A stretch of 64,000 nucleotides of DNA from Armatimonadota bacterium. Its GTDB lineage: Bacteria; Armatimonadota; Fervidibacteria; Fervidibacterales; Thermosaccharophagaceae. Position numbers and translations under genes: made by a program. The stretch covers positions 1 through 64,000 of the forward strand of contig JANXAS010000018.1 of NCBI GenBank assembly GCA_025062195.1, written 5' to 3'. Position 1 is the stretch's first letter; every line of letters starts with the position of its first letter. A model generated the notes under the pieces. The model made no database searches. It saw only the letters and a program-made list of their open reading frames with translations, and was not told the DNA's origin. Positions 51,494 through 60,056 of the stretch are shown here, in pieces.

Positions 51494-54400
51494 TCATCTC
51501 ACAACCAACTTCACTGGCTTCGCTTCAACCTTCGTTTCCTCAGGCGCATAGTATTCGTAGGCGACAGCAGCACCTGAACTTGCCCTAATTGGGTAGGTTG
51601 CCCTCAGACGATAGGATATCGTCACAGTGCCTTGTGGGCGGATTTCGTCAAGGTAGATGATCACCTGTCGCCCTGTCAAGCTGAACTTCTGTATGACCTT
51701 TTGTTCCACAAGCTTCGCCAAGTCCTCAGAGAGGATTTGGAAGCCGGGCGGTATACCGACATCAACGATCACCATCTTCGCCGCAATTGGCTGATTGTTC
51801 CTAACGCTCACTTCGCATCTAACGATATCGTTAACCGAGAGTTCACGCCTGTCGTAATCAACGCTTATATCAAGCGGTTCTTTCTCCTCACCACGAACTA
51901 TGTCCCAAGGCAGGTAATAGCGTGTGGCGACTTGATAGACCGCCGCCCCTTTACCTTGCCATTCAAATGTGACCTCGTTATCGCCTTCCCTTACAAACCT
52001 CTTCAAGTCAACCTGCCGGACGATATCACTATCTTCTGGTGTTATGCGCAGCTTTGCTACATCCTTTCCATTGCACTTTATAGCGATATGAGCATCAATC
52101 TCGCTCGTTGCGCCCTCAGTGGCGAGCAGCAAAGCCTTCAATGACCATATGGTTGCCTGCGTGCTGTGCCATGTGCCATATGCATCCTTGCTGCGCACAA
52201 GGTATGTCAAAGCCTTGTTCACAATGTCGGGATGAGAGCGCGCCTTTAGCAATGCATATGTAGCGAGCGCTGTCGTTTCAAGGTCCGCAGTTATTCCCTT
52301 GCTGTGTGTGAATGTCGGCACGCTTGTGCGCCAGTTGGCTATATCGCCCTCAACATTAGCCATTTTGGCGAGCCTATCAATAATTCGTATCGTCACCTGA
52401 TTGTTCCTGTCCCAACCGACAAACGCATTCGCTATCACAGCAAGCGCATAGGCGTCATCAACGCTCTCAACTCGCCGCCCCATCATGTATTCAACTGCTC
52501 TGCCGACTGAGCGCTTAACCTCTGCATCAGGGATGGTCGTCAATGTCTCGCTAAGCGCCCATGCAATGTATGCCGTCGTTCGCAGCACATCCGTCTGTCG
52601 GTTTATGACTCCCTCACGGATTCCCCCACCCGGTGGCTCCCAAGAGCCATCTTGGCGCTGCCTTGAGATAAGCCACTTGCTTGTCCGCTCTATTACACGC
52701 CTATCAATCTCAAAGACCTTGCTCATGTCGTTGAACTCCATTAAGCCATATGCAGTTAGCACCTCATGTGCTGGCGGATCGCCAAACCACGAGAAGCCGC
52801 CACCCTTGACCTCAAATGTGAGCAAACGTTGGTAGCCCAAGTTGATGTATTGCTCAGCCTTCATCTGTATTTCGGGGTTGATCTGCTTTGTGCGCTTCAT
52901 GTAATCAAGCACGAGCACATTCGGGTATGTGACAGAAGATGTTTGCTCAAAGCATCCGAACGGCATGCGCAGCAATTTGTCTAATCCGTCAACAACCTGG
53001 CTGAACCCACCACCGTAAATGCGCACCAGTATTGTTGAAGCATCGTCAATTGCCTGTGGCGGTATTTTCACAACCTTCTTCACGCTGCCTTTGAGCGTAT
53101 CGCTGACCGACTCCCAAACTTCCTTCCCATTAGGAATGACAAGCACCTGTCGCTTTATAGCATCGCTCATCTTCTCGCCACGGGCAATTACTGTCATGCT
53201 GTTAGTCCCGAGATTTTTAACTCGTATTGGGAAGCGGACAACGCCAACATCGCCAGCATTCATCAACACAGTTTGCTCAATGCTGCTGAGCGGCTCAAAC
53301 CACTCTTCGGGTTGAAGTTGCAGGCGCACAGTTTGAGCCGTTGGCAAGTAGTTGTAAATCGCAATTGGTATTGAGACTTCGTCACCTTGCGTCAGGCTGA
53401 CGGGGAGGTCAATGTCAACAAAGAAGTCTTGAAAGACGCGCAGAGATGCAACGGCGCTACCAAGCAAACCTCTGAGCGAGGATGCCATTACAGTCAACCG
53501 CCATGTTGTAATTGAGTCAGCCATTGCCAGGTTGAGTGATGCCCTGCCACGCTCATCAGTGATGAGTTGCGGAATGAACACAAGTGTTTCAGGGAAGAAC
53601 TGCCTTATGCGAATCTGTTGTGCCTCGGGTGCACCACCACCAAAGCCAGCTGCAGCTTTTGGTCCAGGAGGCCCTTCCGGTCCGCGAGGTCCGACAGGTC
53701 CTTGAGGACCTGCAAGCGCCGCACGCTCTGCTCCAAATGCTCCCAATCCAAGTTGCTGGACAGCTGCTCCCCTATCAAGTATTCTAGTAAACCATATTGA
53801 TTCCTGAGGCATCCTGACATCGTCATTTGTCCCAAAATCACCATCAGGTCCTGCACTGGTGAGCTGTAGGAAGCGCCCCCTTATAAGTTCAGCGCGATAC
53901 TCCCTTCCCAGCGGGTCAAGCACATCCTGACGGCTAATCAACCTCTCGCGAATAAGCGCATCTATGATTTCCTTCTGCTCCGGATAACTACCACGGCGCC
54001 GGCGATATTCCTCAAGCGCGTTGAGCAAACGCGTGTAAACCTTTTGTGCATGCTCAATCCACTTGCCACGAAGCTTCTGTGCCCTTACCTGCCAAGTGTT
54101 CACATACATTGTGTGCAAGTTTGGCATTGCTGCAGCAAAAAGCACCCTTGCAGCCCTCTCTTTTCTCTCATCAATTGTAGCCGGCTGTGGGCGCTCAAGC
54201 GGGAGCAGTCTTAGCGACTTAAGCAGTATAATAGTTGGCTCAAAGCCGCGAATCTGATATTTCGGCTTTAGAAGCTCACGCTCAAGCATGAAGTAAACTT
54301 TCTCAAGTCCCGGCTGCATCTCCTGAAGCGCATAGACCGATTCATCAACTGCGGTTATCCCAAGCGCCGCAAGCATTGGTCTCCCAGATGTATCTGAGAC

Positions 54401-56146
54401 CGAAAGGTCAACGCGAGCCTCCTTGCCCGGAAGATACACATTCTTATCGGGCTTGATGGCGATGCGCAAATCTTCAGCCGGATTGACATAGATGATTTTT
54501 GTGTCTCGGATAATATGACCAGCCTTCGTTATGCGATATGCATGCAGCGTCAATGTGCCCACCATTTGCTCGGTAAGCGTTAACGGGATTGTGTTCCTTG
54601 TGCCATTCATTTCAAGCGACCTTGTGAGCACAGTTTGCCTTCCCCTGATTGCATCAATGTAGACAGTGCCACCACGCCTTGGTGAGAGCACTGTTAATTG
54701 GACTGTCTCGCCAACCCTTGCTATCACCTTGCTCGTCCGCAGCAGTATTGCCTCGTCAATTGCCTCTCCCTCAAGCGTTCTTGTCAAGCGACCTTTGTTG
54801 CCTTGCTTATCTATTGCCTCAACCGCGATGCTGATGCGCCCCTCTGAGGGCACAAACTGCAACTCTGCGATGCCAGTCTCATCTGTCTTTCCAACCCAGT
54901 TAATCCCACCCCCTGTAACCCTCACACTTGTCTCCGCTGGCATTCCATCTGGGTATGTGGTGACGATGAACAGAGTGTTTTGGATGCCTTTAGCAAGTGT
55001 TTGACTGTCTGGTATCACGACGATGCTAATTGCATCCTTTGCTATTGGCAGCGTCTCCGTTATTTGCTCTTCGTGCTCAGCCTTGTCGGTGACTTGAACA
55101 TCAATCTTGAGCAGCGCTTTCCCCTGCTCAAGTGGCAATCCGACAAAGTGCGTCGGTAGGCGATAGCTGAACTTGTAAACTCCACCATCATCAGTGCGCC
55201 CACGAAGCTCGGCAATCTGATTCCATCCGACATCAAATGTTGAGAGCTTAATGATGACCTCGCCATCGGAGACTGGCTTTCCAAAGAAGTAGTTCGCTTT
55301 CACTGTCCCATTGACCTCTTCGCCGGGAAGGTAAAAACGCTTTGATGTCTCAAGTTCAACCTTGAACTTGGGCAGCACATACCTGTCAACTTTGACTGTC
55401 TGCGTTGCTTCACCAACCTCCCTCAATCCGCCTTTAGCATCGGCAACTTGTGCAATTGCTCTAACAGTGTAGTTGCCGAGATTGATTTCGTCAGCGAGCT
55501 GGAAGTCGGCATTGGCAATGCCAAATTGTGATGTCCTCTCCCGCTTCCTGAAGACCTTGTTGCCCTTTGGGTCCTCAACCTCAAATGAGACTTGTATATT
55601 GGGCGACGGCTTCAGTGTCGCCGCGTTTAGGCAAAGCGCACGCATGTGTATGATTTGCGATGGCTGATACAACGGCTTATCAGTGGTTAGCAGTATGCGC
55701 ACCTCTTCTTTCACCGTGACGGTTTCAACAATCTTGTCCTCACCGATCGGCGAGCTGACTGTAACCGAAATTTCGTTCCTGCCAACAGCCCATGGCGGCA
55801 CTTTGAATGTCCCCTCAACGGTCCCGTGCCTATTTGTGCGCTCATTGAAAAGCTCCACCGTCCATCCGCTCTCAGCGTGTTTAAGAGAAACTCTGACTTG
55901 GGCATTCGCTATAGGTTCGTCCTTATCGTGGTTTCGGACGATGACGCGGAGCGACGCAGTTGAGCCGGCAAGCCACTCACGCTGCCCAATAAGATGTATC
56001 TCAAGTGGCGATGGTAGATACTCATTCTGTTGCACCACTCTGGAGGCTGCGCTGCGAGCCAATGCGTAGATGAGAAGCACACCGAGTGCCACACCAAGTG
56101 ATGAACCAAGCACGAAGATGCGCCTTATGGTAACCTTATGCGCCAT
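51494..56146 (-). CDS. Alpha-2-macroglobulin-family protein with GspG-like and collagen-like inserts
   Basis: 1550 residues, anchored by an N-terminal helix (RIFVLGSSLGVALGVLLIYA). Macroglobulin domains occupy ~40-670, including TTDKPLYQPSQIIHMRALCL and KPDKNVYLPGKEARVDLSVS. In the bait-region position lies a module of ~690-785 resembling pseudopilin GspG (LLNALEEYRRRRGSYPE, DPLGREY, SAGPDGDFGTNDD), then a collagen-like run (~805-830, GPQGPVGPRGPEGPPGPK). The A2M domain (SITTWRLTVMAS) and the thioester domain with FGCFEQ (Cys1065, Gln1068) follow. It likely traps attacking proteases in the periplasm. There is no pbpC neighbour, unlike enterobacterial YfhM. GGAGGTGAGTCCTC precedes the ATG. Confidence 0.92.
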   Translation of the reverse strand: MAHKVTIRRIFVLGSSLGVALGVLLIYALARSAASRVVQQNEYLPSPLEIHLIGQREWLAGSTASLRVIVRNHDKDEPIANAQVRVSLKHAESGWTVELFNERTNRHGTVEGTFKVPPWAVGRNEISVTVSSPIGEDKIVETVTVKEEVRILLTTDKPLYQPSQIIHMRALCLNAATLKPSPNIQVSFEVEDPKGNKVFRKRERTSQFGIANADFQLADEINLGNYTVRAIAQVADAKGGLREVGEATQTVKVDRYVLPKFKVELETSKRFYLPGEEVNGTVKANYFFGKPVSDGEVIIKLSTFDVGWNQIAELRGRTDDGGVYKFSYRLPTHFVGLPLEQGKALLKIDVQVTDKAEHEEQITETLPIAKDAISIVVIPDSQTLAKGIQNTLFIVTTYPDGMPAETSVRVTGGGINWVGKTDETGIAELQFVPSEGRISIAVEAIDKQGNKGRLTRTLEGEAIDEAILLRTSKVIARVGETVQLTVLSPRRGGTVYIDAIRGRQTVLTRSLEMNGTRNTIPLTLTEQMVGTLTLHAYRITKAGHIIRDTKIIYVNPAEDLRIAIKPDKNVYLPGKEARVDLSVSDTSGRPMLAALGITAVDESVYALQEMQPGLEKVYFMLERELLKPKYQIRGFEPTIILLKSLRLLPLERPQPATIDERKERAARVLFAAAMPNLHTMYVNTWQVRAQKLRGKWIEHAQKVYTRLLNALEEYRRRRGSYPEQKEIIDALIRERLISRQDVLDPLGREYRAELIRGRFLQLTSAGPDGDFGTNDDVRMPQESIWFTRILDRGAAVQQLGLGAFGAERAALAGPQGPVGPRGPEGPPGPKAAAGFGGGAPEAQQIRIRQFFPETLVFIPQLITDERGRASLNLAMADSITTWRLTVMASSLRGLLGSAVASLRVFQDFFVDIDLPVSLTQGDEVSIPIAIYNYLPTAQTVRLQLQPEEWFEPLSSIEQTVLMNAGDVGVVRFPIRVKNLGTNSMTVIARGEKMSDAIKRQVLVIPNGKEVWESVSDTLKGSVKKVVKIPPQAIDDASTILVRIYGGGFSQVVDGLDKLLRMPFGCFEQTSSVTYPNVLVLDYMKRTKQINPEIQMKAEQYINLGYQRLLTFEVKGGGFSWFGDPPAHEVLTAYGLMEFNDMSKVFEIDRRVIERTSKWLISRQRQDGSWEPPGGGIREGVINRQTDVLRTTAYIAWALSETLTTIPDAEVKRSVGRAVEYMMGRRVESVDDAYALAVIANAFVGWDRNNQVTIRIIDRLAKMANVEGDIANWRTSVPTFTHSKGITADLETTALATYALLKARSHPDIVNKALTYLVRSKDAYGTWHSTQATIWSLKALLLATEGATSEIDAHIAIKCNGKDVAKLRITPEDSDIVRQVDLKRFVREGDNEVTFEWQGKGAAVYQVATRYYLPWDIVRGEEKEPLDISVDYDRRELSVNDIVRCEVSVRNNQPIAAKMVIVDVGIPPGFQILSEDLAKLVEQKVIQKFSLTGRQVIIYLDEIRPQGTVTISYRLRATYPIRASSGAAVAYEYYAPEETKVEAKPVKLVVR

Positions 56147-59306: not shown

Positions 59307-60050
59307 TCACTTTAGCTGGTTGCCATCCCAACCGCAACCGGTTCGCCACTTGCCGTTCACCCAATGGTCTATAACTGACTCCGCCGAAAACCATTTCACA
59401 TGCCCGTCCAAGAAGAGCACATTTGAGCCACCCAGATGGCGCGCATACTCAGGCGTTTGCCTACTCGGATTGCACTTAGCAGCACAAGTATTTGCGTAGG
59501 CAACACGCCATGGGCTGTTCAGCAAACCCGAGCAGTCAGCGAATATAGGTGTAACTGCATGTTGAGTCCATACAATCAACCGGTGCTGCTCACCACCGCA
59601 ACCGTTCAGGATGCTCTCCATATACCCATATGACATCACGAAGTCTCCCGGCAACACCCCTGCGCTTATTAAATCATTTACTCCGTGATGTGGTATGCTC
59701 CCGTTAGAACATCCAAAAGGAGCTGCGCTCGGGCAAGCCCATATTTGCCAGTTCTTGATGTATGGGGAGAGCGACACTTGTGGTTGAATGTTTGTTCTCG
59801 GATCAGGTCTCCAGCACCATGTGTTTGCTCTCGGCAGCCTTTCATCGTAGTCCTGGGAATACTGCAGCACTGCCATGCCTATCTGCTTCAGATTACTCTG
59901 GCACACCGCATTCCTTGCCTTCTCCCTCGCCCTCGCAAACACAGGAAACAATATTGCTGCCAAGACGGCGATTATAGCAATCACCACAAGCAGCTCTATC
60001 AGTGTAAATCCAACTTCCATTCCTTTACGAATTTCGTTTGTGCGCCTCAT
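59307..60050 (-). CDS. DUF1559-type prepilin-like protein
   Basis: About 247 residues. The type IV prepilin leader ends at [23 protein letters not shown] (peptidase cut before Phe, Glu at +5). The helix continues into [20 protein letters not shown] and [20 protein letters not shown], then a soluble head and the C-terminal H-x9-DG motif ([18 protein letters not shown]). This is the hallmark of the large pseudopilin families of Planctomycetes and Armatimonadota. GGGAGGG lies 6 bases before ATG 60050. No secretion genes are adjacent. It is flanked on both sides by repeat copies. Confidence 0.9.
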
Positions 60051-60056
60051 ACTCAT

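Follow-up and report, generated by a model that had tools for sequence, protein, structure and literature searches.

A GspG-like pseudopilin head in the bait position of a bacterial thioester alpha-2-macroglobulin and its recurrence across bacterial phyla

Domain order of the macroglobulin

The 64,000-nucleotide stretch of Armatimonadota contig JANXAS010000018.1 analysed here, hereafter the window, encodes a 1,550-residue thioester alpha-2-macroglobulin (A2M) whose bait region contains a module resembling the C-terminal head of GspG, a pseudopilin of the type II secretion system (T2SS). The gene is an open frame from ATG to stop (residues 1-1550 plus stop; 51494..56146, minus strand), and the coordinates of all its parts below are likewise on the (-) strand. 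Pfam places the macroglobulin (MG) domains, A2M (MG7), the thioester domain (TED) and the receptor-binding domain in the order of type I thioester A2Ms. MG2 occupies residues 151-234 (55445..55696; PF01835, 3.3e-25), MG3 residues 255-319 and A2M_BRD residues 469-607; an LNK-like helical segment, about 60% identical over 80 relatives, follows at residues 604-640 (54227..54337). Beyond the bait region lie the alpha-prime-NT plug RIRQFFPET (residues 846-854; 53585..53611), recognized by its invariant residues and by alignment to human A2M, MG7 (Pfam A2M, residues 854-944; 53315..53587; PF00207, 2.5e-21), the TED (residues 1043-1339; 52130..53020; PF07678, 4.4e-51) and the receptor-binding domain or MG8 (A2M_recep, residues 1456-1540; 51527..51781; PF07677, 2.1e-15).

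The thioester motif reads GCFEQ, a CXEQ-type motif (residues 1064-1068; 52943..52957), with Cys1065 encoded by TGC. The same motif is present in all orthologues whose TED was read, except L040, in which the cysteine codon is TGA. The nearest solved structures by sequence were human A2M (1.7e-70), CD109 and A2ML1, and YfhM fell outside the best 60. Judged by these matches, the protein is a thioester (CXEQ) A2M of an animal-like bacterial subfamily. At the N-terminus, a hydrophobic segment (residues 1-35; 56042..56146) is predicted to be a signal peptide or membrane anchor; it holds the only hydrophobic 19-mer over threshold in the whole A2M in a Kyte-Doolittle scan, which suggests that the protein is exported.

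The bait slot: head, calcium loop and linker

A preliminary description of this sequence had reported a GspG-like segment and six Gly-Pro-x triplets at about residues 690-835, within the bait region. Both elements are present, and the segment lies between MG6-beta/LNK and the alpha-prime-NT plug, which is the bait position. The reported extent, which does contain both, merges two separate parts: a folded module (residues 684-785; 53792..54097) and a disordered stretch (residues 793-851). AlphaFold, run on residues 564-945, gave a pLDDT of 94-97 for MG6-beta, 83-98 for the head and only 38-43 for residues 793-851, which MG7 follows. Identity among the relatives is 60-65% in the LNK-like segment and MG7, 26% in the module and 16% in the linker.

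The resemblance to GspG was assessed by sequence and by predicted fold. With the full-length protein as query, Pfam T2SSG matched residues 698-776 at an E-value of 0.0022 and 18.5 bits, under the cut-off of 21; an isolated 350-residue segment gave 2.5e-4 and 21.5 bits, slightly over it. The domain was found in 15/15 aligned orthologues at E ≤ 1 (best, 1.7e-7). The motifs LEEYRRRRGSYPE, DPLGREY and SAGPDGDFGTNDD were confirmed within the segment. An NCBIfam scan gave no useful match, and the module searched against the PDB as a single sequence, with one wrong letter at the start of the query, found nothing. When a profile of 80 homologous segments (residues 684-790) was compared with the PDB, the top eight matches were all GspG structures, led by 3g20 (5e-11), 1t92 (1.5e-9) and 5wda (4e-9); a profile built from the A2M modules also scored the T2SS GspG of the host genome. 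The preliminary description had named an AlphaFold model and a fold match to GspG as the check on its reading, and this match was obtained. The AlphaFold2 model of the head had a pLDDT of 90.7 and a pTM of 0.80, and the top 11 Foldseek matches were GspG structures (probability 0.85-1.00, TM 0.45-0.63), with modest E-values (0.008-0.07) and in agreement with the sequence profile. By sequence profile and predicted fold, the module is homologous to the C-terminal head of GspG.

The membrane helix of GspG is not present. The helix starting at residue 684 is hydrophilic, with a mean hydropathy of -1.2 versus +2.5 for the host genome's own GspG, and a hydropathy scan of the slot in the window A2M found no hydrophobic segment and no prepilin N-terminus with a hydrophobic alpha1-N. 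The insert has the characters of a GspG head and not those of a functional pilin.

Within the head, residues 766-776 (53819..53851) read GPDGDFGTNDD, an exact instance of the PERCAL motif G-x-D-G-x-x-[GN]-[TN]-x-D-D; a peptide carrying this motif binds calcium, and in the E. coli GspG structure 3G20 the ion is held at the motif by the backbone of P114 and V119 and the side chains of D117, T122 and D125 (PMC3396595). D768, T773 and D776 of the window protein align with these side-chain ligands. Among 81 relatives, D744, G766, D775 and D776 are invariant, D768 is conserved in 99%, and the pattern G-x-D-x6-D-D fits 79/81; the mean identity of the head to that of the window protein is 26%. The head is therefore likely, on sequence grounds, to bind calcium.

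The linker proposed as bait (residues 793-847; 53606..53770; AlphaFold2 pLDDT 38-43) varies from 34 to 93 residues in length and is only 16% identical in sequence; in relatives it is typically rich in Ala, Gly, Arg, Pro and Met. It is likely to be the site of protease cleavage. In the window protein it includes a collagen-like (Gly-Pro-x)6 run, read directly from the sequence (residues 813-830; 53657..53710). Six consecutive triplets were found in the window genome only; every other one of the 81 sequences has at most one in a row, and the run was rejected as a conserved element. Six triplets do not suffice to stabilize a triple helix, and the long Gly-x-y repeat of a collagen-like protein was not found in the linker. 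The linker of the preliminary description is predicted to be disordered, but its collagen-like run lies outside the conserved design and is best regarded as one local form of a flexible linker, because the other sequences never have two triplets in succession. Elsewhere in the same genome, near its second A2M, a gene at L163:9657-11450 carries much longer GPPGPEGPRG repeats before a likely outer-membrane barrel.

Occurrence in relatives and TGA codons at the thioester cysteine

The insertion had been taken for a peculiarity of one macroglobulin, and a search of related genomes had been suggested; that search overturned the former notion. The module is carried by 18 same-phylum orthologues and, at the same position, by all of the best 80 of 465 relatives in genome_contigs, a sample biased by a query that itself contained the module. 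These 80 represent about ten phyla (Armatimonadota, Poribacteria, Hydrogenedentota, WOR-3, Planctomycetota, Cloacimonadota, Acidobacteriota, Myxococcota, Eremiobacterota and others); all are metagenome assemblies, and the phylum names are approximate. The arrangement recurs across many bacterial phyla and was not found described in the searchable literature; no paper joining a macroglobulin with a pseudopilin or T2SSG was found, subscription journals being mostly outside the coverage of the search.

In a second scan, 199 genomes of the phylum of genome G061 (Planctomycetota) were searched with the C-terminal half only. In many of the relatives from this phylum the slot lacks a GspG head and in others it has one, and the module was rejected as a universal feature of the subfamily on account of these headless members. 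In several headless relatives the slot has predicted transmembrane helices instead, 2 to 8 over threshold in a simple hydropathy scan (L197, L200, L207, L208, L227-L229, L234, L268, L269 and L051), implying a putative membrane-inserted bait segment in these relatives. L051, which belongs to the same phylum as the window, has two hydrophobic segments in its slot; no FP[ED] motif was found in it, and it looks like a decayed relative. In addition, further T2SSG matches of the phylum fall in proteins of about 450-500 residues that end in a GspG-like tail (SVGPDGxDDGG; L169-L176), with several such genes in tandem in L169, and these tails show an apparent reuse of the pseudopilin head outside secretion systems.

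The thioester position also varied. At 23 distinct loci of the subfamily, a TGA codon lies precisely at the thioester cysteine (GUFEQ or GUMEQ); the reading frame is open before and after it, continuing for 191 to about 505 codons and in some cases up to the contig or locus end. These loci (L115:4744-4746, L132, L198, L201, L203, L204, L206-L210, L227-L230, L234, L239, L260, L262, L264, L266, L268 and L269) belong mainly to the G061 phylum, together with L115 (Abditibacteriales) and L132 (labelled Bacillota). Each of the 12 TGA genomes tested matched tRNA-Sec strongly, matched SelB or did both, one of them having a partial SelB without a strong tRNA-Sec; a strong tRNA-Sec match was found in 16/27 genomes of the cysteine type (p = 0.009, uncorrected for kinship). 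Hairpins downstream of the codon were slightly stronger in TGA than in cysteine members, a weak difference (z of -1.08 vs -0.61, p = 0.02). The TGA members are probably selenocysteine (selenoester) macroglobulins, as judged from the codon and its genomic context; the window gene itself has cysteine at this position. A literature search found nothing relevant on a macroglobulin with selenocysteine and a thioester, again with subscription journals mostly outside coverage. If confirmed, these would be, to our knowledge, the first selenoester proteins known in the superfamily.

The host genome was also surveyed for secretion systems. It has a T2SS-like cluster with GspE-, GspF-, GspG- and further pseudopilin-like genes (L164), in which the standard GspG scored 141.6 bits. 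Secretin-domain genes are present as well, and one (L165) shares the GspG contig. Around the A2M gene, no conserved neighbour was found beyond lineage-level synteny, and no receptor or partner gene recurs. A prepilin-like protein is encoded close by, at 59307-60056 (-); no evidence supports a functional link.

Mode of action and relation to known proteins

In native members of the A2M family, MG2, MG3 and LNK form a channel through which the alpha-prime-NT, the segment that follows the bait, is threaded; bait cleavage lets this segment retract and the channel collapses (PMC9352918). R732 and F735 are partly conserved plug residues, and mutations of the plug, F735 above all, and of the channel disturb native A2M (PMC9352918). 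R848 and F851 of the window protein align without gaps with human R732 and F735, and R848, F851, P852 and E853 are invariant in 81/81 sequences. From the computed homology, fold, loop, position, linker disorder and plug residues, we infer a protease trap triggered by a plug in a channel, with the head as a calcium-stabilized stopper, a reading to which we give about even chances. The plug would be threaded through the MG2-MG3-LNK channel, and the folded, calcium-stabilized head would act as a stopper on its far side. A protease would cleave the exposed linker (residues 793-847, here collagen-like), upon which the plug would retract, the channel collapse, and the Cys1065-Gln1068 thioester become exposed and capture the protease. 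The head would remain on the N-terminal fragment and could be shed in the manner of C3a if the upstream linker (residues 641-683) were also cut.

Several findings weigh against this stopper model. The MG6-MG7 AlphaFold model reached a pTM of only 0.41, too low for modelling the channel threading, the strict PERCAL motif is present in just 24/81 modules, which bears on the role of calcium, and the headless Planctomycetota relatives indicate that the head is not required for a trap.

A wider view, which we put forward tentatively, is that the slot is a cassette site for varied folded or membrane-inserted devices (a GspG head, transmembrane helices or a bare linker). The device here would be a calcium-dependent pseudopilin stopper, sprung by calcium loss or by cleavage, and some members would use a selenoester, with selenocysteine at the thioester cysteine, in place of the thioester.

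Alternatively, the head could be a neutral structural spacer, one of several compact or membrane-inserted inserts that would suffice. The transmembrane helices or other sequence in the slots of relatives, as well as an unconstrained linker, are consistent with this. Yet calcium-loop residues that stay nearly invariant over about ten phyla, when the rest of the head is only 26% identical, point to a retained function, and we regard a mere spacer as rather unlikely.

We hold still less to the proposal that the trap is docked through its head to the T2SS pseudopilus or to a type IV pilus, either for protection of that machinery or for its own transport to the surface. The host genome does have the T2SS locus, standard GspG and secretin-domain genes, and across 61 genomes GspG was commoner with a modular A2M than without (17/20 vs 23/41; p = 0.04, uncorrected for kinship). 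However, the alpha1-N needed for entry into a pilus is missing, the module persists in three genomes in which no recognizable GspG was found, one of them 98% complete, and no neighbour gene is conserved. Docking is less likely because the alpha1-N is absent and the module is kept where GspG was not found. Of the two roles suggested in the preliminary description, calcium binding thus gains from the nearly invariant loop, while docking fares poorly.

A similarly low likelihood attaches to a third possibility, that cuts on both sides free the head as a soluble calcium-binding domain, a C3a-like signal or effector sensed elsewhere. Its topological position is that of the C3 anaphylatoxin domain, with variable linkers on both sides, but the nearby genes include no recurrent receptor or partner, and the linker upstream of the head is moderately short and helical in part. 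Finally, a chance resemblance, in which an ordinary macroglobulin segment was misread as GspG, would fit the sub-threshold Pfam score of the whole protein and the empty single-sequence PDB search, but it is contradicted by the agreement of profile and fold on GspG, by T2SSG in 15/15 orthologues, by the conserved calcium ligands and by the short, module-free slot of the host genome's other A2M, and it has next to no probability.

Returning to the stopper model, the arrangement allows the plug-in-channel hypothesis to be tested cleanly and, if the model is true, would be a natural precedent for macroglobulins with alternative triggers, which have been proposed as an engineering aim (PMC9352918).

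With GspG/PulG (T2SSG), the insert shares the head fold, a DPWG-type motif, the calcium loop and the ligand positions; it differs in having no prepilin signal or hydrophobic alpha1-N, in lying inside a macroglobulin and in a shorter loop before the DPWG-type motif. Bacterial type I A2Ms (YfhM/ECAM, Salmonella A2M) share the bacterial origin, the CXEQ thioester and a bait region, but they are far more distant in sequence: the second A2M of the host genome (L163:4249-9063), which is YfhM-like and has the short slot, matches YfhM first, whereas the window A2M matches animal proteins first. Animal A2M, CD109 and A2ML1 have the same MG, TED and receptor-binding order, a CXEQ thioester and the plug residues R732/F735, but the bait region of their solved structures has no GspG-like head, none having appeared in the profile search; the animal thioester motif is GCGEQ, versus GCFEQ here. 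In complement C3, C4 and C5, the same slot, which precedes the alpha-prime-NT plug, is occupied by a folded anaphylatoxin domain; that domain has no relation to GspG, and no anaphylatoxin structure was among the PDB matches of the module profile. Macroglobulins and complement are textbook components of animal immunity. By sequence, the subfamily described here stands closer to the solved animal thioester proteins than to the bacterial ones that have been studied, and its slot, which in complement contains C3a, likewise has a folded domain.
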